Positions 14,325-37,843 of a stretch of 53,164 nucleotides of DNA are shown one piece after another. Position 1 is the stretch's first letter; the number at the start of each line of letters is the position of its first letter. The notes beneath the pieces were generated by a model, which searched no databases, was not told where the DNA came from, and was given only the letters and a program-made list of their open reading frames with translations. Both the position numbers and the translations under genes were made by a program. The stretch comes from Rhodovastum atsumiense (GTDB taxonomy: Bacteria > Pseudomonadota > Alphaproteobacteria > Acetobacterales > Acetobacteraceae). The stretch is taken from the NCBI GenBank assembly GCA_026225115.1, contig JAMFSE010000066.1:1-53164 (forward strand). The letters run 5' to 3'.

Positions 14325-14578
14325 CACCCCGGCCTTGTTGACGCAGATAAACCAAATTTAACGTTTCGGGTCAATCACGCTTCCCTGAACGCAAGGCACC
14401 GCCTCATCCGGCCTCAAAAACAAATTTGTCGGTAAACAATCGCCGCCTCGGACGCCGAGCGCTACGCGCCGAAAGTCAGCAAAACATTCCATATTTATTG
14501 TTTAACAAAACCAGGTTGTAAGATAAGAAGCCTGTCGCAAGAGCCGAGACTTAAATTCAAATGCGCCAGGGAAACAAA

Positions 14579-15958
14579 ATGCGAGATCAACCAGCAGCTT
14601 CCGGCAGCTCCGGTAACCCATGGCACAGATCGGCAATCCGTCTTGGCCGCCGCGGCATCGAAGCCGCCATCTGCGCCGTTTTATTAGCCGGCGCGCCAAC
14701 ATTCTCCGCTCTGGCACAGGACGCTCAAGCCCTGGCCGCATCGGACAGCACCGCGGACACCAGCCAGGACTACACAACCGAACAGCTCGACGCTTTGCTG
14801 GCGCCCATCGCCCTCTACCCGGACCAGTTGCTGACGCAAATCCTCATGGCCTCCGCCTATCCGCTGGAGATCGTACAGGCGCATCGCTGGCTTGAGGTCC
14901 CCGCCAACAAAGCCCTCACGGGCGACGCGCTGGCAAGCGCGCTGGAGCGCCAAAGCTGGGATCCGTCCGTCAAATCCCTGGTACCGTTTCCACAAATCCT
15001 CAATACCATGAATGAGAAGCTGGATTGGGTGCAGCAGCTTGGCTACGCGGTGGAAAACCAGGAAAATGCGGTAATGGATTCCATCCAGCGCCTGCGCCGG
15101 CAGGCGCAGGAAGCAGGCCAGCTGCAATCGAACGAACAACAGACCGTCAGCACCGAAAACCAGGCCATCATCATCGCGCCGGCGCAGCCGAATGTCGTCT
15201 ATGTTCCGGCCTATAATCCCACTGTCGTTTATGGCGCCTGGCCCTACCCGGCCTATCCGCCGGTTTATTGGCCGCCGCCGCCCGGCTACGCGCTGGCCTC
15301 CGGCATCGCATTCGGCGTCGGCATTGCGGTCACGTCCAGCCTATGGGGCTGGGCGCGGCCAGCCTGGGGCTACGGCGGCTACCACGGCAACATTAACGTC
15401 AACGTGAACCGATACAACAATATCAACGCCAACCGCACGCAAATCCATAACTCCAACTGGAAGGCCAACCGGCCGGCTGACGCCGGCAACCGGCCCACGC
15501 GCCCGCCGGGCGGCCCCGTGGGCCGGCCCGGCCGTGGCGGCGGCCTGCCGTCAAACGCCATCGGGCGGCCGAGCGTAGATGTTCCTGGAAACATTACTAA
15601 ACCCCCAGGCGGCATCGGCGGCAACCGGCCCGGAAACGGCGGCAACCCCGGTGGCGGCCTGAATAAACCCGGCAACGGCAACAAACCGGGCGGCGGGTTC
15701 AACAAAACCGGCAATGGCGCCGGCATGGGCAACGGCAATCGTCCGGCACAGGGCGGCGGTGCTGCCGCCAACCGGCCCAAACCTGGCGGCGGCGCTCGCC
15801 AGCCGGGCGCGCTGTCGGGCATGAATCAAGGCAAGACCGCATCCCAGTTCGGCAATCGCGGTGCGCAAAGCCGGGAGGCCGGCGGCATGCGCGCGGGCGG
15901 CGGCCGACCTGACGGCGGTGGCGGACGAATGGGCGGCGGCGGAGGAAGACGCAGATGA
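14579..15958 (+). CDS. DUF3300 protein with Gly/Asn/Pro-rich tail
   Basis: About 459 aa: an N-terminal hydrophobic export segment (near residues 28-50), a DUF3300 domain (QLDALLAPIALYPDQLLTQ, then SWDPSVKSLVPFPQIL and PNVVYVPAYNPTVVYG), one further hydrophobic stretch, and a C-terminal third of low-complexity Gly/Asn/Pro/Arg repeats such as NRPGNGGNPGGGLNKPG. The ATG at 14579 has AGGGA seven bases upstream. The gene overlaps the next by ATGA, reproducing the DUF3300-DUF2950 pairing seen in many proteobacteria. It is probably an exported envelope protein; molecular function unknown. Confidence 0.9.
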   Translation: MRDQPAASGSSGNPWHRSAIRLGRRGIEAAICAVLLAGAPTFSALAQDAQALAASDSTADTSQDYTTEQLDALLAPIALYPDQLLTQILMASAYPLEIVQAHRWLEVPANKALTGDALASALERQSWDPSVKSLVPFPQILNTMNEKLDWVQQLGYAVENQENAVMDSIQRLRRQAQEAGQLQSNEQQTVSTENQAIIIAPAQPNVVYVPAYNPTVVYGAWPYPAYPPVYWPPPPGYALASGIAFGVGIAVTSSLWGWARPAWGYGGYHGNINVNVNRYNNINANRTQIHNSNWKANRPADAGNRPTRPPGGPVGRPGRGGGLPSNAIGRPSVDVPGNITKPPGGIGGNRPGNGGNPGGGLNKPGNGNKPGGGFNKTGNGAGMGNGNRPAQGGGAAANRPKPGGGARQPGALSGMNQGKTASQFGNRGAQSREAGGMRAGGGRPDGGGGRMGGGGGRRR

Positions 15959-16962
15959 GAACAGTTCTAACGCATCGGCGGTTCCGGCGCCTGAACATCC
16001 CGGCGGCAGTCATCCTGGGCGGGTTCTGCATGGCACCCACCGGCACGCTGGCCGTTGCTTATGCAACGCCAGCGGCCGCCACGACCGAATCCGCCGCCCA
16101 GCGAAGCTTCGCCTCCCCGCAAGCCGCGGTCGACGCATTGATCAGCGCCCTGAAATCCGACGACCCGAAAGCCCTTTCGGCCATCTTCGGCCCCGACGGC
16201 GCGCATCTGGTCGCATCCGGCGACAAGGTGGCCGATGAGGCAACCGCCGCGAAATTTGTTGCCCGCTATGCGCAAGACCATTCCATGGCAACACAGCCCG
16301 ACGGCAGCGTCATCCTCTCGGTCGGCGAAAACGCCTGGCCGCTCCCCATTCCCCTTGTCCAATCGAAGGGCAAATGGAGCTTTGATACTTCGGTCGGCAT
16401 CCAGCAAATCATCGACCGCCGCATCGGCACCAACGAACTGCTCGCGATTCAAACCCTATTCTCCTGCGTCGAAGCCCAGCAGGATTTCTTCGGGCGCATG
16501 CAGGACAGCACCGGCACCGGCGTCTACGCCGGTCAGGTGTTCAGCACGCCGGGCCAGGAAGACGGGCTTTATTGGGACGCCAGCAACGGCGAAATCCCTA
16601 GCCCGCTCGCCCCGCTCATCGCCCAGGCGCAGAGCGAGGGCTATCTCGACGCCGACACCATTGTGCCGGACTCACCCAAGCCCGAGCCCTATCACGGCTA
16701 TTTATACCGCATCCTGAAAAGCCAGGGACCGGACGCTGCCGAGGGCGCCAAAAACTATATCGTCAACGGCAAAATGACTGGCGGCTTCGCCTTCGTCGCC
16801 TGGCCCGCCGTCTACGGCAGCACCGGCATCATGACCTTTATCATCAACCAGGACGGGGTGGCCTTCCAGCAGGATTTGGGGCCCGGTACCGCCACCGAGG
16901 TCGCGCAGATGAAGTCGTTCAACCCGGACCTCGATTGGGCTCGCATCGTCCCCACCGATTAA
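15955..16962 (+). CDS. DUF2950 exported protein
   Basis: A 335-aa protein with a long N-terminal signal region (cut expected near AVAYATPA) and the DUF2950 domain: FASPQAAVDALISALKS, WPLPIPLVQSKGKWSFD, RIGTNELLAIQT, and the aromatic PEPYHGYLYRILKSQGP. Translation is coupled to the DUF3300 gene through an ATGA overlap. Both proteins are expected in the periplasm or outer membrane. Function is unknown. Confidence 0.9.
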   Translation: MRTVLTHRRFRRLNIPAAVILGGFCMAPTGTLAVAYATPAAATTESAAQRSFASPQAAVDALISALKSDDPKALSAIFGPDGAHLVASGDKVADEATAAKFVARYAQDHSMATQPDGSVILSVGENAWPLPIPLVQSKGKWSFDTSVGIQQIIDRRIGTNELLAIQTLFSCVEAQQDFFGRMQDSTGTGVYAGQVFSTPGQEDGLYWDASNGEIPSPLAPLIAQAQSEGYLDADTIVPDSPKPEPYHGYLYRILKSQGPDAAEGAKNYIVNGKMTGGFAFVAWPAVYGSTGIMTFIINQDGVAFQQDLGPGTATEVAQMKSFNPDLDWARIVPTD

Positions 16963-23803: not shown

Positions 23804-25288
23804 TCAACCGACCGGAAACGCGATCGATTTCATCTGCGTATATTCCAGATACCCTTCCTCGCCCCATTCGCGGCCAAGGCCGGAGCGCTTGTACCCGCCA
23901 AACGGCGTATCCGGGTGCATCCGTCCCGGCCCACCATTGATCAACACCATGCCGGTGCGGATTTTCATCGCCATGTTCAACGCGGTACCGGCATCGCGCG
24001 AGATGATGCCGCCGCTCAAACCGAAGTCAGAGGTGTTCGCAATCTTTACCGCCTCTTCATCGGTATCGAAGCCGATGATCGAGGTAATCGGCCCGAACAC
24101 CTCGTTCATCGCCAAATAGCTATCCGGCTTCACATTATCAAAAATCGTCGGTTCGAAATAAAATCCTTTGGTCAGATGCGCCGGCCGCTTGCCGCCGGCA
24201 ATCAATGTCGCCCCTTCGGTCAGCGCGCGTTCGACGAATTTCTCGGTCCGCACCCGTGCCGCATCGCGGATCACCGGCCCCATCGAAATACCTTCGTCGA
24301 ACGGATTGCCGACTTTCCAACTCGGTGCCATTGCTTTCATGCCGGCAACAAATTCCGCCCTGATTTTGTTGTCCACCAGCACCCGCGTGGTGCAGGCGCA
24401 GCCCTGGCCGGCCTGCGAGAAATTTCCGTAAAATGTGCTCGGAATGGCCGTGGCAAGGTCCGCGTCGTGGCGCAGGATCATTGCCGACTTGCCGCCCAGC
24501 TCCAGATGGCATTTGGTGATATGCTGCGCCGCCTGGATCATGATCTGGGTCCCGACCTTATCGGACCCCGTGAAGCTGATCATGTCGACGCGCTTGTCGG
24601 AGCTCAGAACCTCGCCGACATCGGCGCCGCCGCTGACAATGTTGAACACGCCCGGCGGCAGGTCCAGCTTCGCAATCAGCTCGGTCATGAAAAAGCTCTG
24701 CAGCGGCGTGAACGGCGCCGGCTTCAAAATCACCGAATTGCCGGCGGCCAGGGCCGGCACTGTCTTCAACAGGCTCAGAAACAGCCCGGCATTATACGGG
24801 GTCACCGCAACCACCACCCCGATCGGGTCCCGCACAACAATGGCGCCGCCCAGCTTGATGGTGCCGTTCGGCTGCGGGGTCGAGAGCAGCGGCAGGTTCT
24901 TGGTCAGTTCGGCCTCGGCGAAATCCAGCATCCGCGAGCAAAGTTCGATCCCGAAATGGAACTGGAAACCCGCCTCGCGCTTGGTAAAGCCGACTTCCAG
25001 CTGCATCAGCTGCAGCGCCTCCTCCGAGCGCGCCTGCACCATTTCCAGCAATTGCCGCATCTTCTTCACCCGAACCGAGCGGTGTTCGGTCGCCCAGGGC
25101 CCCTCATCGAACGCATGCCGTGCCGCCGCCAGGGCGGTCTTGGCGTCCGCTACCGTGCCCAAAGGCGCAATACCCGCAACGCCCTCATCGGAGGGGCTGA
25201 TGATGTTCTCCACGCCGCCGGAGGGCGCGACGAATTGCCCGTCGATGAACAGCTTGTGGTATTCGGGTTTTACAATGGTGGCGCTCAT
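23804..25288 (-). CDS. Aldehyde dehydrogenase (first of two)
   Basis: A 494-aa NAD(P)-dependent aldehyde dehydrogenase. The nucleophile Cys297 is in SQAGQGCACT, the general base Glu263 in LELGGKS, and Asn166 in TPYNAGLF; all are intact. It should oxidise an aldehyde formed from a P450 or alcohol dehydrogenase product to a carboxylic acid. GAGGAAA precedes the ATG. Its neighbours are an SDR upstream (45 bases) and a P450 downstream. The acid formed could be the substrate of the adenylate-forming PanC-like protein encoded first in the same operon. Confidence 0.94.
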   Translation of the reverse strand: MSATIVKPEYHKLFIDGQFVAPSGGVENIISPSDEGVAGIAPLGTVADAKTALAAARHAFDEGPWATEHRSVRVKKMRQLLEMVQARSEEALQLMQLEVGFTKREAGFQFHFGIELCSRMLDFAEAELTKNLPLLSTPQPNGTIKLGGAIVVRDPIGVVVAVTPYNAGLFLSLLKTVPALAAGNSVILKPAPFTPLQSFFMTELIAKLDLPPGVFNIVSGGADVGEVLSSDKRVDMISFTGSDKVGTQIMIQAAQHITKCHLELGGKSAMILRHDADLATAIPSTFYGNFSQAGQGCACTTRVLVDNKIRAEFVAGMKAMAPSWKVGNPFDEGISMGPVIRDAARVRTEKFVERALTEGATLIAGGKRPAHLTKGFYFEPTIFDNVKPDSYLAMNEVFGPITSIIGFDTDEEAVKIANTSDFGLSGGIISRDAGTALNMAMKIRTGMVLINGGPGRMHPDTPFGGYKRSGLGREWGEEGYLEYTQMKSIAFPVG

Positions 25289-25332: not shown

Positions 25333-26172
25333 TCAGCCTCTGGCGGAACCCGGCGTCACCGGCGGCGTCAGTGCCCCGGTCATCACGCCGCCGGCAAAGC
25401 CCTGGTCGGTATATAGCAGCGCCCCGGTGACCACATTGTTCAGCCGGCTGTTCAGCAGCACCATCGGCCAGGCCTGCTCCTCCGCCGTCGCCATCCGGTG
25501 CAGCAGCGGATAGGGGAAGGCATTGAAAAATTCCTCGCCCAGATCCTTGATGGTCGGGTCCATGAACGGCGTCGCGGTAGGGCAGGGGGCAATGCAATTC
25601 ACCCGTATCGCCCGCGCCTCGGCAAGCTTCACCCCGTGATGCTTCGACCAGACAATCAGCATCTCCTTTGAGACGCTATACCCATCCTTGATGAATTCAG
25701 GATGCGCCGCGCAATACTTCCCGGCCTCAACCGCATCCGAAATCGCCAGAAATTCCAAATTTTTGGCAAGATTGCTTTGCCAGCCCATCCCCGCATCCGA
25801 CGAGATAATGGCAATCGACCCCCCATCTTTCATCGAAGGAATGATCCCGTCCATCAACTGCCGGGTTCCGATATAATTGATGAGCATGCAGTTGAGCGGC
25901 CCCACCACATGCGGGGCCCCGGCGCAGGCAAACACATGGTCAACCGGCCCGATTTCTCCAAGCGCCCGTACAGTCGCGCTTACCTGCTCCGGCTTCGCCA
26001 GATCGGTTTTATAAAACCCTGCGCAGGCAATCCCCGGCTCCTGATGGTCGACAATGTAAATTTTGGCGCCAAGCTCGCCCAGAATCCTGCCCGCGGCAGC
26101 ACCCATGCCGGTAGCCGCCCCGGTCATGACGATGGTGGTATCGCGATATCCAAGCCCGTCCAGTCGGTGCAT
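25333..26172 (-). CDS. Short-chain dehydrogenase (3-alpha-HSD-like)
   Basis: A 279-aa SDR with the cofactor motif TGAATGMGAAAG and the catalytic YSVSK. The long helix-rich segment between the SSDAG serine and the catalytic tyrosine is typical of the 3-alpha-hydroxysteroid dehydrogenase/carbonyl reductase subgroup, as is the PGATETP-like CPTATPF. A hydroxysteroid or terpenol substrate is suggested, not shown. GGGGAG lies nine bases before the chosen ATG at 26172; the extension to 26220 is rejected. Spacing of 28 bases to the upstream SDR gene indicates one operon. Confidence 0.9.
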   Translation of the reverse strand: MHRLDGLGYRDTTIVMTGAATGMGAAAGRILGELGAKIYIVDHQEPGIACAGFYKTDLAKPEQVSATVRALGEIGPVDHVFACAGAPHVVGPLNCMLINYIGTRQLMDGIIPSMKDGGSIAIISSDAGMGWQSNLAKNLEFLAISDAVEAGKYCAAHPEFIKDGYSVSKEMLIVWSKHHGVKLAEARAIRVNCIAPCPTATPFMDPTIKDLGEEFFNAFPYPLLHRMATAEEQAWPMVLLNSRLNNVVTGALLYTDQGFAGGVMTGALTPPVTPGSARG

Positions 26173-26200: not shown

Positions 26201-27151
26201 CTACCCGCCGGCGGCGCCACTCACTTCCGCATAGGCCTTGATGTCCTCGATATTCGTCCCGGTGAAACCGGCCGGCGTCATCGTAGCACCCGTCATATCC
26301 ATCACCTGCGCAAACCCCGCGGCCAGGCTCTCAATCGTCAGCTCGGCATCGGCGAAGCCTCGCGTCTCCGAGAGGAACAGCCGTTTCACGGAACCGCCGG
26401 TCGTGGCAAAACATTCCCCGCTCACCGGGCAATCCGCATGGCTGAGATACGCCACCACCGGCGAGACCTTCTCCGCCGGCAGTGCCGAGCGCGACAATTG
26501 CAGAATCGCCGAGGACTCCCGCTGCGTGCTCTGCATCATCCGCGTATAGGCAAACGGATTGACGGTATTTGCCTTGATCCCATGCGCCGCGCCCTCATCC
26601 GCCAGCGCCCGTGTCAGCGAGAACAGCCCGCCCTTGGTGGTGCCATAGGCGCTGTGCAGCGCCATCCCTCGCAGCGCGTCGGATCCGATATTAACAATGC
26701 GCCCATAGCGCTTCTTCATCATGAACGGCCATGCCGCGCGAGCCACCCAGATCGCACCCAGCAGGTTAACCTCGATATGGCGCTGGTAGTCGCGAACGGA
26801 CATTTCCTCGAACCGCGCAATCGCCACTACTGCCGCATTATTCACTACGATATCGACGCCGCCGAACGCATCCACCGCGCGCTGCACAAACTCGGCAGCA
26901 CCCTCCGCCGTTGCGACCGAATGCGTATCCGCCACCGCCTTGCCGCCCAGCGCCGTAATCTCCGCCACCACGGCCTCCGCCGATGCCGCGCTCTGGTAGC
27001 CCTTGTTCAGCGGGTCCTGGCCGATATCGTTCACCACCACATTGGCGCCACGAGCGGCGAGCAGCATCGCATGCGCCCGGCCCAGACCCGGGTTCCCCCC
27101 AGCCCCGGTGACAAGGGCGGTCCGCCCGTCGAAGCGCAGAAGCTCCCTCAT
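26201..27151 (-). CDS. Short-chain dehydrogenase (MFE-2/HSD17B4-like)
   Basis: A 316-aa SDR whose N-terminus RTALVTGAGGNPGLGRAHA matches the (3R)-hydroxyacyl-CoA dehydrogenase domain of peroxisomal MFE-2. The active site is SAYGTTKGG (YxxxK). The C-terminal 60 residues extend past the usual SDR end. It likely oxidises a hydroxyacyl-CoA or cyclic alcohol. The ATG at 27151 is six bases downstream of the stop of the DapB-like gene, so translation is probably coupled; a longer frame to 27322 overlaps that gene and is rejected. Confidence 0.9.
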   Translation of the reverse strand: MRELLRFDGRTALVTGAGGNPGLGRAHAMLLAARGANVVVNDIGQDPLNKGYQSAASAEAVVAEITALGGKAVADTHSVATAEGAAEFVQRAVDAFGGVDIVVNNAAVVAIARFEEMSVRDYQRHIEVNLLGAIWVARAAWPFMMKKRYGRIVNIGSDALRGMALHSAYGTTKGGLFSLTRALADEGAAHGIKANTVNPFAYTRMMQSTQRESSAILQLSRSALPAEKVSPVVAYLSHADCPVSGECFATTGGSVKRLFLSETRGFADAELTIESLAAGFAQVMDMTGATMTPAGFTGTNIEDIKAYAEVSGAAGG

Positions 27152-27156
27152 CTCCG

Positions 27157-28206
27157 CTACCCTTTCGCCAGCCCGAAGGCATAGGGCGCGGGAAAATCCA
27201 ACACCGAAAGCGCGCCGGCCGGCGCTTCGATCAGCCTTGGCAGCACATTTACCGCGCGCGCCGCATTCAACGCGTGGCAGGCTGCCCCGGGATCGGTCCC
27301 GCCCGGCCAGCCAAAGCTGCACACAATCGGCGGATCGCCGTCGATCTCCACCCGCCAGGCGGGATCTTCATAATTCTGCCGCCAATCCGGCCCGGAGTTC
27401 AAAGCGGTGGATTGTTCATTCACCAGCCGGTAAAATTCGCGTCCGCCGGCGCGCGCCGCGAGCGTCCAGCGGATCCCCTCCGCCGTTCCCTTCTTAATCT
27501 CCAGCCCGCTTCCCGGCAGCACCCGGTCCTCTTTCGCCACCGCGTATTCCACGCGCTCGAGCGCAATGCCTTCCCATTCGATCCCGAGCCCCGCCGCGAT
27601 CATCCGGCTCGACTGCGCCATGGTCCGGGTCCATCCGGCATCGATATATTTCTGATACGGCCCTTCGCCCGGCGGTTCGCCAATCCCCAGCATCTTGATC
27701 TGCGGCGCCGACGGCCCGCTTTCCATATCATTGCGCTGCCAGCAGCGGATCTGGCTGATCTCTCCAGTATATCCGGAAAGAAAAAGCGGCAGCACATCCG
27801 CCACCAGCCCCGGAATATTCCCGCCCGCGCAAAGCGAGGCATTGCCCTTCAGCGCCGCGCCCTTCAGTTTCGCCTCTTCCGGCTGGCCTTCCAGAAAATA
27901 CGCGCCGATGCCGTTATATAAATTAATCCCGGCTTCCAGGATTTTCGCATAGGCATCGATATCGTAAACGCTGCCGCTCCAGTTAATCGCATCCGGCTTC
28001 AGCGCGATGATCTCGTCCAGCGATCCCACGGTCATAATGCCGTTCGGCTTGCCGCCCGCCAGTTCCCCGGAATCCAGCCCCACCTTCTCCGGGTAATGCA
28101 CCAGCACGCCCACCAGCTCCAGCTGCGGATGCCCGGCCAGCCGCCGGATCGCCGATCGCCCGACCGGCCCGGTATAACATTGCGCAACCCGATATTTTTT
28201 TGTCAT
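27157..28206 (-). CDS. DapB-fold NAD(P)-dependent dehydrogenase
   Basis: A 349-aa protein with an N-terminal Rossmann domain of the dihydrodipicolinate reductase type (YRVAQCYTGPVGRSAIRRL, then VGVLVHYPEK and LCAGGNIPG). Relatives with this length include 2,4-diaminopentanoate dehydrogenase and many unassigned paralogues in catabolic clusters. It lacks the diagnostic DapB substrate loop, so lysine biosynthesis is unlikely. Its position between the PanC-like gene (52 bases) and the SDR genes suggests it oxidises or reduces an intermediate carrying an amine or ketone. GGAG precedes the ATG at 28206. Confidence 0.82.
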   Translation of the reverse strand: MTKKYRVAQCYTGPVGRSAIRRLAGHPQLELVGVLVHYPEKVGLDSGELAGGKPNGIMTVGSLDEIIALKPDAINWSGSVYDIDAYAKILEAGINLYNGIGAYFLEGQPEEAKLKGAALKGNASLCAGGNIPGLVADVLPLFLSGYTGEISQIRCWQRNDMESGPSAPQIKMLGIGEPPGEGPYQKYIDAGWTRTMAQSSRMIAAGLGIEWEGIALERVEYAVAKEDRVLPGSGLEIKKGTAEGIRWTLAARAGGREFYRLVNEQSTALNSGPDWRQNYEDPAWRVEIDGDPPIVCSFGWPGGTDPGAACHALNAARAVNVLPRLIEAPAGALSVLDFPAPYAFGLAKG

Positions 28207-28258: not shown

Positions 28259-29107
28259 TCAGGTCACCGTCACGCCCACATTATCCACCAGCGGCACGTC
28301 GCCCAGTTTCAGCGAAGCAATCAACCGAATCTCGCCCTTCAGCGTCTCCATCGATTGCAATGATTCCGCATCCACCGCATTGGCATAAACCGACTCGCCA
28401 ACCGCATTCAACCGGTCGTTCAGCAACTTCTCAATCACCGCCGAAGACCGTTCGCCTGCCTCAATCGCGGCCACGCCCGCCATCAGCGTCTCATACAAGG
28501 CCGGCGCCTTTTTGCGATCCTCCGCCGTCAGCCGGGCGTTGCGGCTGGACAGCGCCAGCCCGTCGGCATCGCGGATCACAGCACATCCCACCACCTCCAC
28601 CTCGGTCGCAAGATCCTCAGCCATGCGCTTGAACATCGCCAGCTGCTGCCAGTCCTTCTCGCCGGAATAATACCGCATCGGGCCAAAAATATTATAAAGC
28701 TTCGCGGTCGCGGTCGACACCAGGTTGAGGTGGTATTCCTTCTCCATCGGCGGGCATTCGGAGGCCAATTGCGGCACCAGCGTAATCGTCACCGGCCGGC
28801 GCGGCGAATAATCGTCGCCATTCGGGACATAAGCGTATTTAATGCCGGTCGACTCAATCAGCGGAAGATCCTTGTTCCAGTCGCGGTCATCATAACCCGG
28901 CGGCCGTGTATGATTGGACCAGGACGTCGTCATCCCGCCCATCCAGAACATCAGCGCCACCTCATTCTCCGCCACCGCACGGCGGATCAATGACAAATGC
29001 CCGTCATGCACTTTCCCGCTGGTTCCCATAACGCCGGCCTTCCCGCCGGCAGCCTGGACCGGCTTCAGCAATGCGCGCACTTCCGCAATGGTCGAAAGAA
29101 TCTTCAT
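28259..29107 (-). CDS. PanC-like adenylate-forming ligase, diverged
   Basis: A 282-aa paralogue of pantothenate synthetase. ATP-site signatures remain: HDGH (His34, His37), SGEKDWQQ and LSSRN (187-190), with the RDADGLALSSRNARL region almost canonical. Pantoate-binding segments are replaced: the usual FVNPxQF is WMGGMTTSW, and R-P-x-H-F-x-G is PMEKEYHLNL; a three-residue insert precedes HDGH. It probably still forms an acyl-adenylate but on another acid, then passes it to an amine or thiol. It leads the operon with DapB-like, SDR, ALDH and P450 genes. ATG at 29107 is placed by AGGGAG; a GTG at 29113 is the alternative. Confidence 0.85.
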   Translation of the reverse strand: MKILSTIAEVRALLKPVQAAGGKAGVMGTSGKVHDGHLSLIRRAVAENEVALMFWMGGMTTSWSNHTRPPGYDDRDWNKDLPLIESTGIKYAYVPNGDDYSPRRPVTITLVPQLASECPPMEKEYHLNLVSTATAKLYNIFGPMRYYSGEKDWQQLAMFKRMAEDLATEVEVVGCAVIRDADGLALSSRNARLTAEDRKKAPALYETLMAGVAAIEAGERSSAVIEKLLNDRLNAVGESVYANAVDAESLQSMETLKGEIRLIASLKLGDVPLVDNVGVTVT

Positions 29108-29139
29108 AGTCACTCCCTAAAAAACGCACATGTTCGGCG

Positions 29140-29169
29140 TTGACATATTATAGGCCGATGGCTTATCAC
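29140..29169 (+). promoter_or_regulatory. Candidate promoter and operator of the SDR at 29214
   Basis: TTGACA at 29140-29145 and TATCAC at 29164-29169, 18 bases apart, fit a sigma-70-type promoter about 45 bases before the SDR start. The spacer contains ATAGGCC, the core of the motif found at 31911, 41517 and 42340, so a repressor could block it. The divergent PanC-like operon starts at 29107, so the site could control both. Confidence 0.4.
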
Positions 29170-29213
29170 GAAAAGTGAAACACATTCAACAATTAAAAAT
29201 TCGGAGGATTGCG

Positions 29214-30041
29214 ATGCGGCTTCAGGGCAAGGTAGCGGTCATAACGGGCGGCACCAAAGGCATCGGCCGCGTCACCGCGATCATGATGGCGGCGCAAGGC
29301 GCCAAAGTCGTTTTCACCGGCCGCAGCGAAGACGCCGGCGCCGAGGTCGTGGAGCGCATCAAGCAAGCCGGCGGCGAGGGTACATTCGTGCGCGCCGACA
29401 ATAAAATCGAAGCGCAGATCGCCGGCGCCGTTCACAAGGCAGCCGAACTCTACGGCCCCGTCACCATCCTGATGAACAACGCCATCGCATCGGATGATGT
29501 CGGCAGCGGCAAAGACAGCCACGTCCATGAACTCGACACCAACGTGCTGGACGAGATCATGAAGGCCGCCCTCTACGGCACCATCTGGGCCAGCAAGGCG
29601 GCAATCCCCTATATGAAACAGGTCGGCCGCGGCTCCATCATCAACATCTCCGCCTCCTCCAGCGTCGGCGCAATACCGGCCCGCCCCTCCTACCAGGCCT
29701 CCAAAGGCGCGATCAATTCACTCACCCGGCAGATGGCGTTCGACTACGGCAAGGACGGCATCCGCGTAAACACCATCGTCGTCGGCTTCACCAACACCGG
29801 CAGCGATTCCTTCAAGCGCATGCTGGCCAACCCGGACATCAAGGGCGCCTTCGAAAAACTGGTGCTCACCCCATATCTCGGCGAATCCTCGGACATCGCC
29901 AACGGCGCCATCTACCTCGCCTCGGACGAATCCAAATACGTCACCGGCACCATGCTGACCATCGACGGCGGCGCTTTATGCCACCAGGCCCAACCGCAAC
30001 TGGACTTCGCCAAAATGCGTGCTGAGGCGGCAGCAAAGTAA
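29214..30041 (+). CDS. Short-chain dehydrogenase/reductase
   Basis: A 275-aa classical SDR: TGGTKGIG at residues 11-18, NNA at 88-90, catalytic SYQASK with Tyr160 and Lys164, and C-terminal VTGTMLTIDGG. A strong GGAGG ribosome site precedes the ATG at 29214. It is divergent from the PanC-like operon with 106 bases between starts, and probably belongs to the same pathway. Specific substrate unknown. Confidence 0.92.
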   Translation: MRLQGKVAVITGGTKGIGRVTAIMMAAQGAKVVFTGRSEDAGAEVVERIKQAGGEGTFVRADNKIEAQIAGAVHKAAELYGPVTILMNNAIASDDVGSGKDSHVHELDTNVLDEIMKAALYGTIWASKAAIPYMKQVGRGSIINISASSSVGAIPARPSYQASKGAINSLTRQMAFDYGKDGIRVNTIVVGFTNTGSDSFKRMLANPDIKGAFEKLVLTPYLGESSDIANGAIYLASDESKYVTGTMLTIDGGALCHQAQPQLDFAKMRAEAAAK

Positions 30042-30474: not shown

Positions 30475-31086
30475 TCAGTTTGCCAAAGGATCGTGGCGCA
30501 GCAAGGTGGTGATCAATTGCGCAATCGCCTGCTGCTGCTCCACGACTCTCGGCTGGCGGGCTGTGCGCCTGCCCGCATTCTGCAGCAGCAACGTCGTCGT
30601 CCGCTCCAGCCCCGAGATCAGAATGCCCGCAATCGGCAGATCGGCCTCTATCCCGGCACGGCCATGCGCCGCCGCCAGCTTGGCGGCGAGCCCGTGAAAC
30701 AATGCCGTCGGCCACTGCGCGCGCAGCTGAATAAACCGGCTGTCGCCACGCTCGGCCAAGGTATTGCGCACGAACAGAGCGCCGCGCCGCGCGTGCCAAT
30801 ATTCGTAATGCGCATGCGCGAACGCCAATGCGCATTCATGTTCGGAGCCTTTTGCCCAGGGCGCCTGCAGCATCGCCGCCAATGGCGCTATTTCCTCGCG
30901 CAGCGGCTGCATCGCATCAAACAGCAATGCGCCGGCATCGGCATAATATCGGTACACGATCGTGATATTCACGCCGGCCTCGGCAGTTACCGCGGTCAGC
31001 GTCGGCGGCGTGTCGGGCGCAATCTCCATCAGCAGCCGGGCGGCGGACAGCAGCCGGTCGCGCACCTGCCGCCCTTTGCTGCTCAT
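30475..31086 (-). CDS. TetR-family regulator (first of two)
   Basis: A 203-aa regulator with an N-terminal TetR helix-turn-helix (LTAVTAEAGVNITIVYRYYAD, residues about 29-50) and an all-helical ligand domain. The ATG at 31086 has AGG upstream; an extension to 31146 is less likely. Its targets are not evident: the repeated operator-like motif described elsewhere is not found directly upstream. The neighbouring GST gene and SDR operon are candidates. Confidence 0.88.
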   Translation of the reverse strand: MSSKGRQVRDRLLSAARLLMEIAPDTPPTLTAVTAEAGVNITIVYRYYADAGALLFDAMQPLREEIAPLAAMLQAPWAKGSEHECALAFAHAHYEYWHARRGALFVRNTLAERGDSRFIQLRAQWPTALFHGLAAKLAAAHGRAGIEADLPIAGILISGLERTTTLLLQNAGRRTARQPRVVEQQQAIAQLITTLLRHDPLAN

Positions 31087-31186
31087 CTTTTGGCCTAGGA
31101 GATTATATTCATGGCCCTGGTCCAGTCGATCAATTCCTTCCAGCAATGCCTAACTCTAACCGGAACGAATAAAGTCGCAACGTCAA

Positions 31187-36705: not shown

Positions 36706-37843
36706 TTAACTTCCTGGCCTTACTAATCCTTCGATCGTCCCGTGGATCACCACGTCGCTCGCATCGTCCAGCACTCTGCGTGCCACCAGAAATTCCGCGC
36801 CCATCCAGCCGTGGCGGATGAACTTGCCGAAGCGCAGCCTTGTTCCTGGAGCGCCGCATGCGGCGGGCAGCATTTTTATGCGTTCCAACGCTTCCTTCAC
36901 GCCGCGGCCCGTTAGCGGCCGGGCGTTGGCAATCGCCGTCGTCATCAGCCGGCCGACATCGCAATAATACAACGGCTGGAAATAGGCGGGGCGGTAGCCG
37001 TAGCGCGCTTCGAAGCGGTTCAGGAAATCCTCACCGGTTTTATTGCGCTCATCGTATTGGTCAATGCCGATCCAACCGGCAAGCTGGTTGCGCCATTTCC
37101 CGGGCTTGGCGCCGATCTCGAAGGCGGTGGTGGTGTAGCGCGGCGGCACCCAGCCGATTTCTTGCAGCGCCGCATTCATCCCGCCGATGCCAAGCCCGAA
37201 GCCGACATGCATGATCCCATCGGGCCTGGCTTCCGCAATCTCCCGCATCGCCTGCAATTTATCGGTTTCCACATGCGAGATCGCGACCTCGCGCGTAATG
37301 GCAAGCCCCGTGTCAGCGCAGGCGGCCCGCAGCGTGCGCTGCCCGCAGCGTGCGCAGGTACTCATGGCCGATCAGCGAGTTCTCATAAACGATGCCGACC
37401 GAGCGGCAGCCGTCATACCAGGCGACCTTCGCCATGATGATCGGCTCTTCTTCCATCGAGCCCGCGGGCAGTCCGAACACCCATTCGCCGAGCATGTTCT
37501 CGGATCCGCCGAGCGTAATGATCGGCACTTCACCCAGCCGCTCGACAAATTCCCGCAACGGCACGCCATTTTCCGAAACCCATGGTCCGCAGATCACGAC
37601 GCAGCCTTCCGCCACCAGCGCGTTGAACGCAGTGCGAACCGCCTGGAAACTTCCTTTCGGCAAGCCGCTGACATGCCGCAGCACGAATTCGACCGGCCGG
37701 TCGATCGCCCCGCTTGCGCGAAATTCCTCAGCAATCAGCTGCAAACTATCGAGGATATCGGCATGCGCCTGCGCCCCTGGCGTGGCGCCATCGGCCAGAT
37801 AATCCCATAGCAATCCGACCCGAACCGGTTCTACGCCGCTCAT
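36706..37843 (-). pseudogene. Periplasmic-binding-fold protein (branched-chain amino-acid ABC type), frameshifted
   Basis: A type I periplasmic-binding-fold protein of about 370 aa, broken into an N-terminal frame (37843-37313; VRVGLLWDYLADGATPG, ICGPWVSENGVPLREF) and a C-terminal frame (37365-36706; GLGIGGMNAALQEIGW, RNKTGEDFLNRFEARYG). The frames join smoothly if one unit of a 16-bp tandem duplication at 37325-37356 is removed, restoring YLRTLRAACADTGLA. No signal peptide is seen, so it may have been a cytosolic sensor rather than an ABC-transporter subunit; no permease or ATPase gene is nearby. The lesion looks recent because both frames are otherwise intact. A sequencing error cannot be excluded. 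Confidence 0.85.
37325..37356. repeat. 16-bp tandem duplication causing a frameshift
   Basis: GCCCGCAGCGTGCGC occurs at 37325-37339 and again at 37341-37355; the unit is 16 bp, not a multiple of three. It sits exactly where the two frames of the solute-binding gene meet. Confidence 0.9.

Follow-up and report, generated by a model that had tools for sequence, protein, structure and literature searches.

Why should a bacterium with an ordinary pantothenate synthetase keep a second, heavily altered member of that enzyme family among genes for cytochromes P450 and dehydrogenases? The question is raised by a 53,164-nucleotide stretch of Rhodovastum atsumiense DNA (hereafter the window), wherein positions 28259–29107 on the minus strand encode a 282-residue paralogue of pantothenate synthetase (PanC, EC 6.3.2.1) that we call PanC*. 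The original prediction had located the gene correctly, and the motifs it quoted (HDGH, SGEKDWQQ, RDADGLALSSRN, WMGGMTTSW and PMEKEYHLNL) are all present in the protein. The reading frame is intact and begins with an ATG codon at 29107. PanC* matches PF02569 over its whole length (180.8 bits, profile positions 1–267 of 268) and scores 156.9 bits against TIGR00018, under the curated panC equivalog cut-off of 212.75; its two orthologues described below also fall under that cut-off (172.1 and 169.9 bits).

The vitamin pathway of the host, judged by panC and panB, does not appear to need this protein. A canonical panC, for which a check elsewhere in the genome had been proposed, is present in the host assembly (G000; 3.67 Mb, 149 contigs) at C30:7495–8298, and its product scores 312 bits, with 273.0 bits against TIGR00018. 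A single panB resides on contig C57, apart from the contig carrying PanC*. With an ordinary panC and panB elsewhere in the genome, the PanC* gene is thus an extra copy.

We aligned PanC* and its two orthologues (L034 and L033) to E. coli PanC, whose numbering is used here, together with 58 canonical PanCs that represent the better search matches rather than a random draw. This set comprises the host's own protein, 29 from 60 relatives of the host, four from a pattern scan, two from the metagenome-assembled genomes (MAGs) that carry the orthologues, 19 from the family of one of these MAGs (G061) and three from the class. Asn58 and Gln61 of the FVNPxQF motif occur in all 58 canonical proteins and in none of the three variants. 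Arg123 of the RPxHFxG motif is likewise present in 58 of 58, and Lys, Ala or Pro takes its place in the variants. Furthermore, Pro59, Pro124, Phe127, Gly129 and Met30, all invariant in canonical PanCs, are changed or missing in every variant. Kept in all three are His34, His37, Gly149, Lys151, Asp152, Gln154, Gln155, Arg179, Ser187, Ser188 and Arg189, of which we take His34, His37, Lys151, Asp152, Ser187, Ser188 and Arg189 to have ATP-site roles. The proposal of a PanC paralogue with a changed pantoate site and a preserved ATP site therefore holds. Its claim that the R-P-x-H-F-x-G segment is replaced has to be narrowed, because His126 is retained and the changes affect Arg, Pro, Phe and the Gly that comes next.

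In Mycobacterium tuberculosis PanC, substituting alanine for H44, H47, N69, Q72 or K160 reduces activity roughly 1000-fold, according to a passage of PMC5772511 that cites Zheng et al. Judged by motif, H44 and H47 are the HxGH histidines, K160 lies in GxKD, and N69 and Q72 lie in FVNPxQF. By this mapping, the variants retain the three residues outside the replaced loop but not the two within it. Because the N69A and Q72A enzymes are reported to have impaired adenylate formation, loss of Asn58 and Gln61 could disable adenylation as such. Since Gln155, His126 and Arg179 are kept, the substrate may also be a small, pantoate-related hydroxy acid.

Both orthologues were recovered from Novosphingobium MAGs (L034, 61% identity; L033, 58%) by scanning species genomes with exact 8-residue patterns, which diverged members can escape. 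Besides these, the scan returned another five PanC-family stretches, of which four are ordinary and one is partial. Each of the two MAG genomes also encodes a canonical PanC (322.5 and 330.7 bits). The G061 MAG contains a third, partial PanC-family frame at one end of contig C283 (L044:3–440). The C-terminal half that is present looks canonical, and the frame may represent either contamination or another copy of canonical panC.

A protein query recognised no further member among the 60 host relatives, each of which gave at most one match, with identity up to 38%. Profile and protein searches of larger genome sets, which overlap in part, returned G061 alone among 397 genomes of its family (next best 176.5 versus 571.1 bits), G061 and G062 alone among 195 genomes of the genus of G061 (1e-52), the host alone among 190 genomes of its class, where four other matching genomes were residue-tested, and the host alone among 349 genomes of the phylum (1e-54). 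At 1e-45 the family search matched 23 other genomes, of which 19 were residue-tested and four (156–158 bits) were left out. No plasmid match reached at least 60% identity to PanC* among the best 20 of 375 matched records, and no relatives were found in viral contigs. Among the matches listed, the open-access literature contained no described PanC paralogue of this kind. Across the class, PF02569 matches 214 of 376 genomes at E ≤ 1e-10, with more than one match in three: the host, G1159, whose two matches are partial, overlapping fragments from different contigs, and G835, which is discussed below.

In a maximum-likelihood tree of 62 proteins, with a midpoint root used only for drawing, the three variants form one clade (support 100/100), which a stem of 2.62 changes per site separates from the 59 canonical proteins, and the host's canonical PanC groups with those of its own genus. 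That PanC* arose by a recent duplication of panC within the host is ruled out, because this branch parts the variant clade from the canonical proteins, including that of the host. The dN/dS values of the three PanC* pairs (0.12–0.20, Nei–Gojobori) are only indicative, because dS (1.3 to 2.0) is near saturation. An AlphaFold2 model of PanC* (seven rows) has a pLDDT of 84.9 and a pTM of 0.83, with the lowest confidence at residues 61–70 and 101–130, which overlap the replaced segments. The 50 Foldseek matches listed for this model are all pantothenate synthetases, with TM-scores up to 0.90, and the identity of PanC* to solved PanCs among the matches listed is 24–34%. In sum of likeness, PanC* shares with PanC whole-length PF02569 homology, the fold and all of the ATP-site residues named above. 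It differs in its TIGR00018 score, in the replaced Asn58/Gln61 loop, in the loss of Arg123 and the rest of the R-P-x-H-F-x-G segment apart from its His, in being a second copy in genomes that also encode a canonical PanC, and in its gene neighbours.

At all three loci, PanC* is followed by a gene for a DAP_DH-family oxidoreductase and faces a divergent short-chain dehydrogenase (SDR) gene. The oxidoreductase (27157–28206, minus strand) is 75% identical to its orthologue in L034 and 67% identical to that in L033. The divergent SDR (29214–30041, plus strand), which was absent from the gene list of the original prediction, is the most conserved member of the module (90% in L034 and 86% in L033, in the same arrangement), and its best solved match is 5epo, a 7-alpha-hydroxysteroid dehydrogenase (143.8 bits). 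Convergent with this SDR is a TetR-like regulator gene (30475–31146, minus strand) that scores 22.3 bits against PF19352, just under the cut-off of 23.9; L034 has a homologue with 57% identity at the corresponding position, which the L033 contig is too short to cover. Alignment of the three regions between the divergent genes (29108–29213 in the window) reveals a block at 29171–29190 that is partly common to L034, with a weak match in L033, and that is possibly a regulator site.

The original prediction had proposed to check whether PanC-like genes of this kind always neighbour DapB-like and SDR genes. They do so for the DAP_DH-like and divergent SDR genes at three of three loci, and the co-directional SDRs of the window were not found at the others. 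The residue changes and the two neighbours are unlikely to be chance, because they are the same at both orthologous loci elsewhere and dN is well below dS. A profile of the DAP_DH-like protein finds an orthologue in G061 alone among the 397 genomes of its family (next best 206 versus 743 bits), so that PanC* and this protein occur together in the genomes covered. Canonical PanC, by comparison, shows 54–55% identity between the host and the two Novosphingobium genomes. The proteins of the module are therefore better conserved between these organisms than this housekeeping enzyme is, and the module may have been transferred laterally.

The partner dehydrogenase had been called DapB-like. Its sole Pfam match at E ≤ 0.001 is DAP_DH_C (PF19328), at 32.8 bits against a cut-off of 23.3, which places it in that family, and no model of the DapB N- or C-terminal domain matches at this threshold. 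The best NCBIfam match, 2,4-diaminopentanoate dehydrogenase (NF040740), reaches 59.0 bits, far under its cut-off of 400. Among solved structures the best matches are 6g1h/6g1m and 7xdu, which were deposited as dihydrodipicolinate reductases, and 7r09, an amine dehydrogenase; we take 6g1h/6g1m to be AmDH4 and 7r09 to be MATOUAmDH2. Chains named DapB (5kt0, 6bdx and 5ugj) match more weakly, with E values of 0.0017–0.0093. The protein beside PanC* is better described as DAP_DH-like or native-amine-dehydrogenase-like. Two further members of the family in the host genome are 27–28% identical to it. A second DAP_DH-family protein is also encoded on the G061 contig C33 (L087:9515–10564), the same contig as PanC* of that genome. 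An AlphaFold2 model of the partner had a mean pLDDT of 62.7 and was set aside.

The catalytic glutamate of amine dehydrogenases is given as E111 of MATOUAmDH2 and E108 of CfusAmDH, position P3, in the relevant part of PMC9325545. In profile alignments, the catalytic glutamate of 7r09 (residue 111), 6g1h, 6g1m and 7xdu aligns with Gly101 of the partner, which is invariant in all three partner orthologues. The glutamate pair of 6iaq lies opposite a gap, and a single-sequence alignment also places the glutamate opposite a gap. The partner therefore appears to lack this residue, with a placement that is only moderately certain because identity is low. It shares its domain and its best solved matches with native amine dehydrogenases and 2,4-diaminopentanoate dehydrogenase (PF19328), and differs in the missing glutamate (Gly101 or a gap). 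In this respect it resembles the Glu-less members, mostly of group G5, for which a section of PMC11164908 describes inactivity in reductive amination: within that group, activity on the substrates tried was confined to members with the glutamate, and divergent activity is reported for members of the family. A model in which the dehydrogenase makes the amine for the ligase, suggested by the presence of amine dehydrogenases among the nearest solved relatives, is made less probable by the missing glutamate.

PanC* is also, as had been predicted, the first gene of a co-directional run of six on the minus strand. The order is PanC*, the DAP_DH-family gene, two SDR genes (26201–27154 and 25333–26172), an aldehyde dehydrogenase (ALDH) gene (23804–25288) and a CYP101-like P450 gene (22523–23752), with gaps of 52, 2, 28, 44 and 51 bases. 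The first of these SDRs (PF00106, 133.9 bits) and the P450 (PF00067, 81.1 bits; best solved match 5kyo, CYP101J2) have no orthologues in L034, L033 or the 35-kb G061 contig, where matches reach 28–30% identity at best: 28–30% in L033, L034 and L087 for the SDR, and 29% to a P450-like protein near PanC* in G061 for the P450. The second SDR, whose best NCBIfam match is coniferyl-alcohol dehydrogenase (NF009092, 208.5 bits versus a cut-off of 242), has no match in L034, L033 or the whole 35-kb contig. The ALDH (PF00171, 453.7 bits) is the exception, with a 62% homologue (L086:768–2270) on G061 contig C33, about 13.7 kb from PanC*. The L033 contig informs little past the next gene because it is 4.8 kb long. 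On these two contigs, the idea of the six-gene operon as a conserved functional unit is rejected for the P450 and both co-directional SDRs, which may lie outside the pathway because they are not found with PanC* elsewhere.

Across the window as a whole there are three P450 matches, alongside ALDHs, SDRs, thiolase-like proteins, a ChsH2-type OB protein, a CoA-transferase and phosphotransferase-family proteins. On the G061 contig are an FAD-monooxygenase-like protein, the P450-like protein, LuxC, an NMO-family protein and the second DAP_DH protein. From these neighbours we infer that a catabolic role on hydrophobic compounds is favoured; CYP101J2, as described in part of PMC5598857, hydroxylates 1,8-cineole. 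A Peripla_BP_6-like gene (36739–37774, minus strand) is similar to L087:10600–11706 on the G061 contig (43–47% by tblastx), and because its halves lie in different frames (break at 37329–37343) it is a frameshifted gene or reflects a sequencing error. Genes for DUF3300 and DUF2950 proteins lie adjacent on the plus strand of the window (14561–16962).

That PanC* is a repurposed PanC is well supported by the comparison of sequences. We give slightly better than an even chance to the reading in which it is an ATP-dependent acyl-adenylating ligase for an acid other than pantoate, in a small module with an SDR and a Glu-less DAP_DH-family enzyme and in a catabolic setting. Specifically, PanC* would use ATP to convert a carboxylic acid other than pantoate to an acyl-adenylate, as the retained residues suggest, and an amine, or less likely a thiol, would then attack the adenylate to yield an amide and AMP, by analogy to PanC. 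Adenylation is proposed because the nucleotide site is kept, and a change of acid because the loop is lost; adenylation followed by amide or thioester formation can reasonably be inferred from the analogy. The enzyme's partners, in a small regulated module, would be the divergent SDR and the DAP_DH-family dehydrogenase; having lost the amine-dehydrogenase glutamate, the latter probably carries out a different redox reaction on the same metabolite. Given the abundance of P450, ALDH, SDR, thiolase-like and CoA-transferase genes in the window, the acid would most likely be terpenoid-like, steroid-like or otherwise hydrophobic. A little short of an even chance is the broader claim, made from three PanC* members in all, two of them from MAGs, that these proteins represent a family of PanC-derived catabolic or tailoring amide (or thioester) ligases for a hydrophobic acid, each with a dedicated SDR, ligase and Glu-less DAP_DH module. 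We could find no counterpart to the pathway step that such a ligase would perform.

An alternative retains the acyl-adenylate and dispenses with the amide, such that the adenylate goes to CoA, another thiol or water, or the partner dehydrogenase reduces it, in a carboxylate-activating catabolic step. The nearby CoA-transferase, thiolase-like and ALDH genes are consistent with this route, as are the replacement of the R-P-x-H-F segment along with FVNPxQF and the identity of the constant partner as a DAP_DH-family oxidoreductase. However, the clusters have their own CoA-transferase or CoA-ligase-type genes, and we know of no PanC-family enzyme that passes its adenylate to a thiol or water or has it reduced, and we regard this route as unlikely, if worth serious consideration. 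It is improbable that PanC* is a non-catalytic relic or binding protein. Although its very long stem (2.62) and the total of three members could be read in this way, the tested ATP-site residues are all kept in three divergent members, the frames are intact and dN/dS is 0.12–0.20.

Transfer of AMP to a non-carboxylate such as an alcohol or phosphate, as in the wider nucleotidyltransferase superfamily, would fit a kept nucleotide site beside a replaced acid site. We consider it very improbable, as Gln154, Gln155 and His126 are kept and nothing observed suggests that the acceptor is a phosphate or hydroxyl group. Least probable of all is that PanC* still makes pantothenate as a fast-evolving isozyme with relaxed substrate contacts. 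Its whole-length PF02569 match, its fold, its 24–34% identity to solved PanCs among the matches listed, and its retention of Gln155 and the tested ATP-site residues agree with such a role, but residues present in 58 of 58 canonical proteins (Asn58, Gln61 and Arg123) are gone in three of three variants, all three score under the panC equivalog cut-off, all three genomes encode a canonical PanC, and the single panB lies on another contig.

A clade without the pantoate contacts but with the ATP site makes it possible to test directly whether a vitamin ligase has been turned to a different acid. The partner of PanC* is a Glu-less protein of the amine dehydrogenase family, for members of which part of PMC11164908 reports divergent activity, so solving one protein should help with the other.

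Diverged PanC-family proteins also occur outside the PanC* clade. Two that are 75% identical to each other are encoded in G835 (L124:1405–2313) and on a plasmid of Bradyrhizobium sp. 187 (L129:7947–8885; NZ_CP064694.1), and the G835 copy scores 120.7 bits against TIGR00018, where the cut-off is 212.75. These proteins resemble PanC* as extra, diverged PanC-family genes, in G835 with a P450 next door whose best NCBIfam match is SolI of solanimycin biosynthesis (445.5 bits versus a cut-off of 850). In contrast to PanC*, they have different partners and best match canonical PanCs (111 bits, versus 64–79 bits to the PanC* clade); judged by these scores, they are independent of it. The PanC-family genes of G835 further include two ordinary ones and one that is broken into three pieces. 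The label panC is readily given to members of this family, and even the strongly diverged Bradyrhizobium protein is annotated as a pantoate--beta-alanine ligase. In both G835 and Bradyrhizobium sp. 187, a gene for a pentapeptide-repeat protein adjoins the diverged PanC-family gene.
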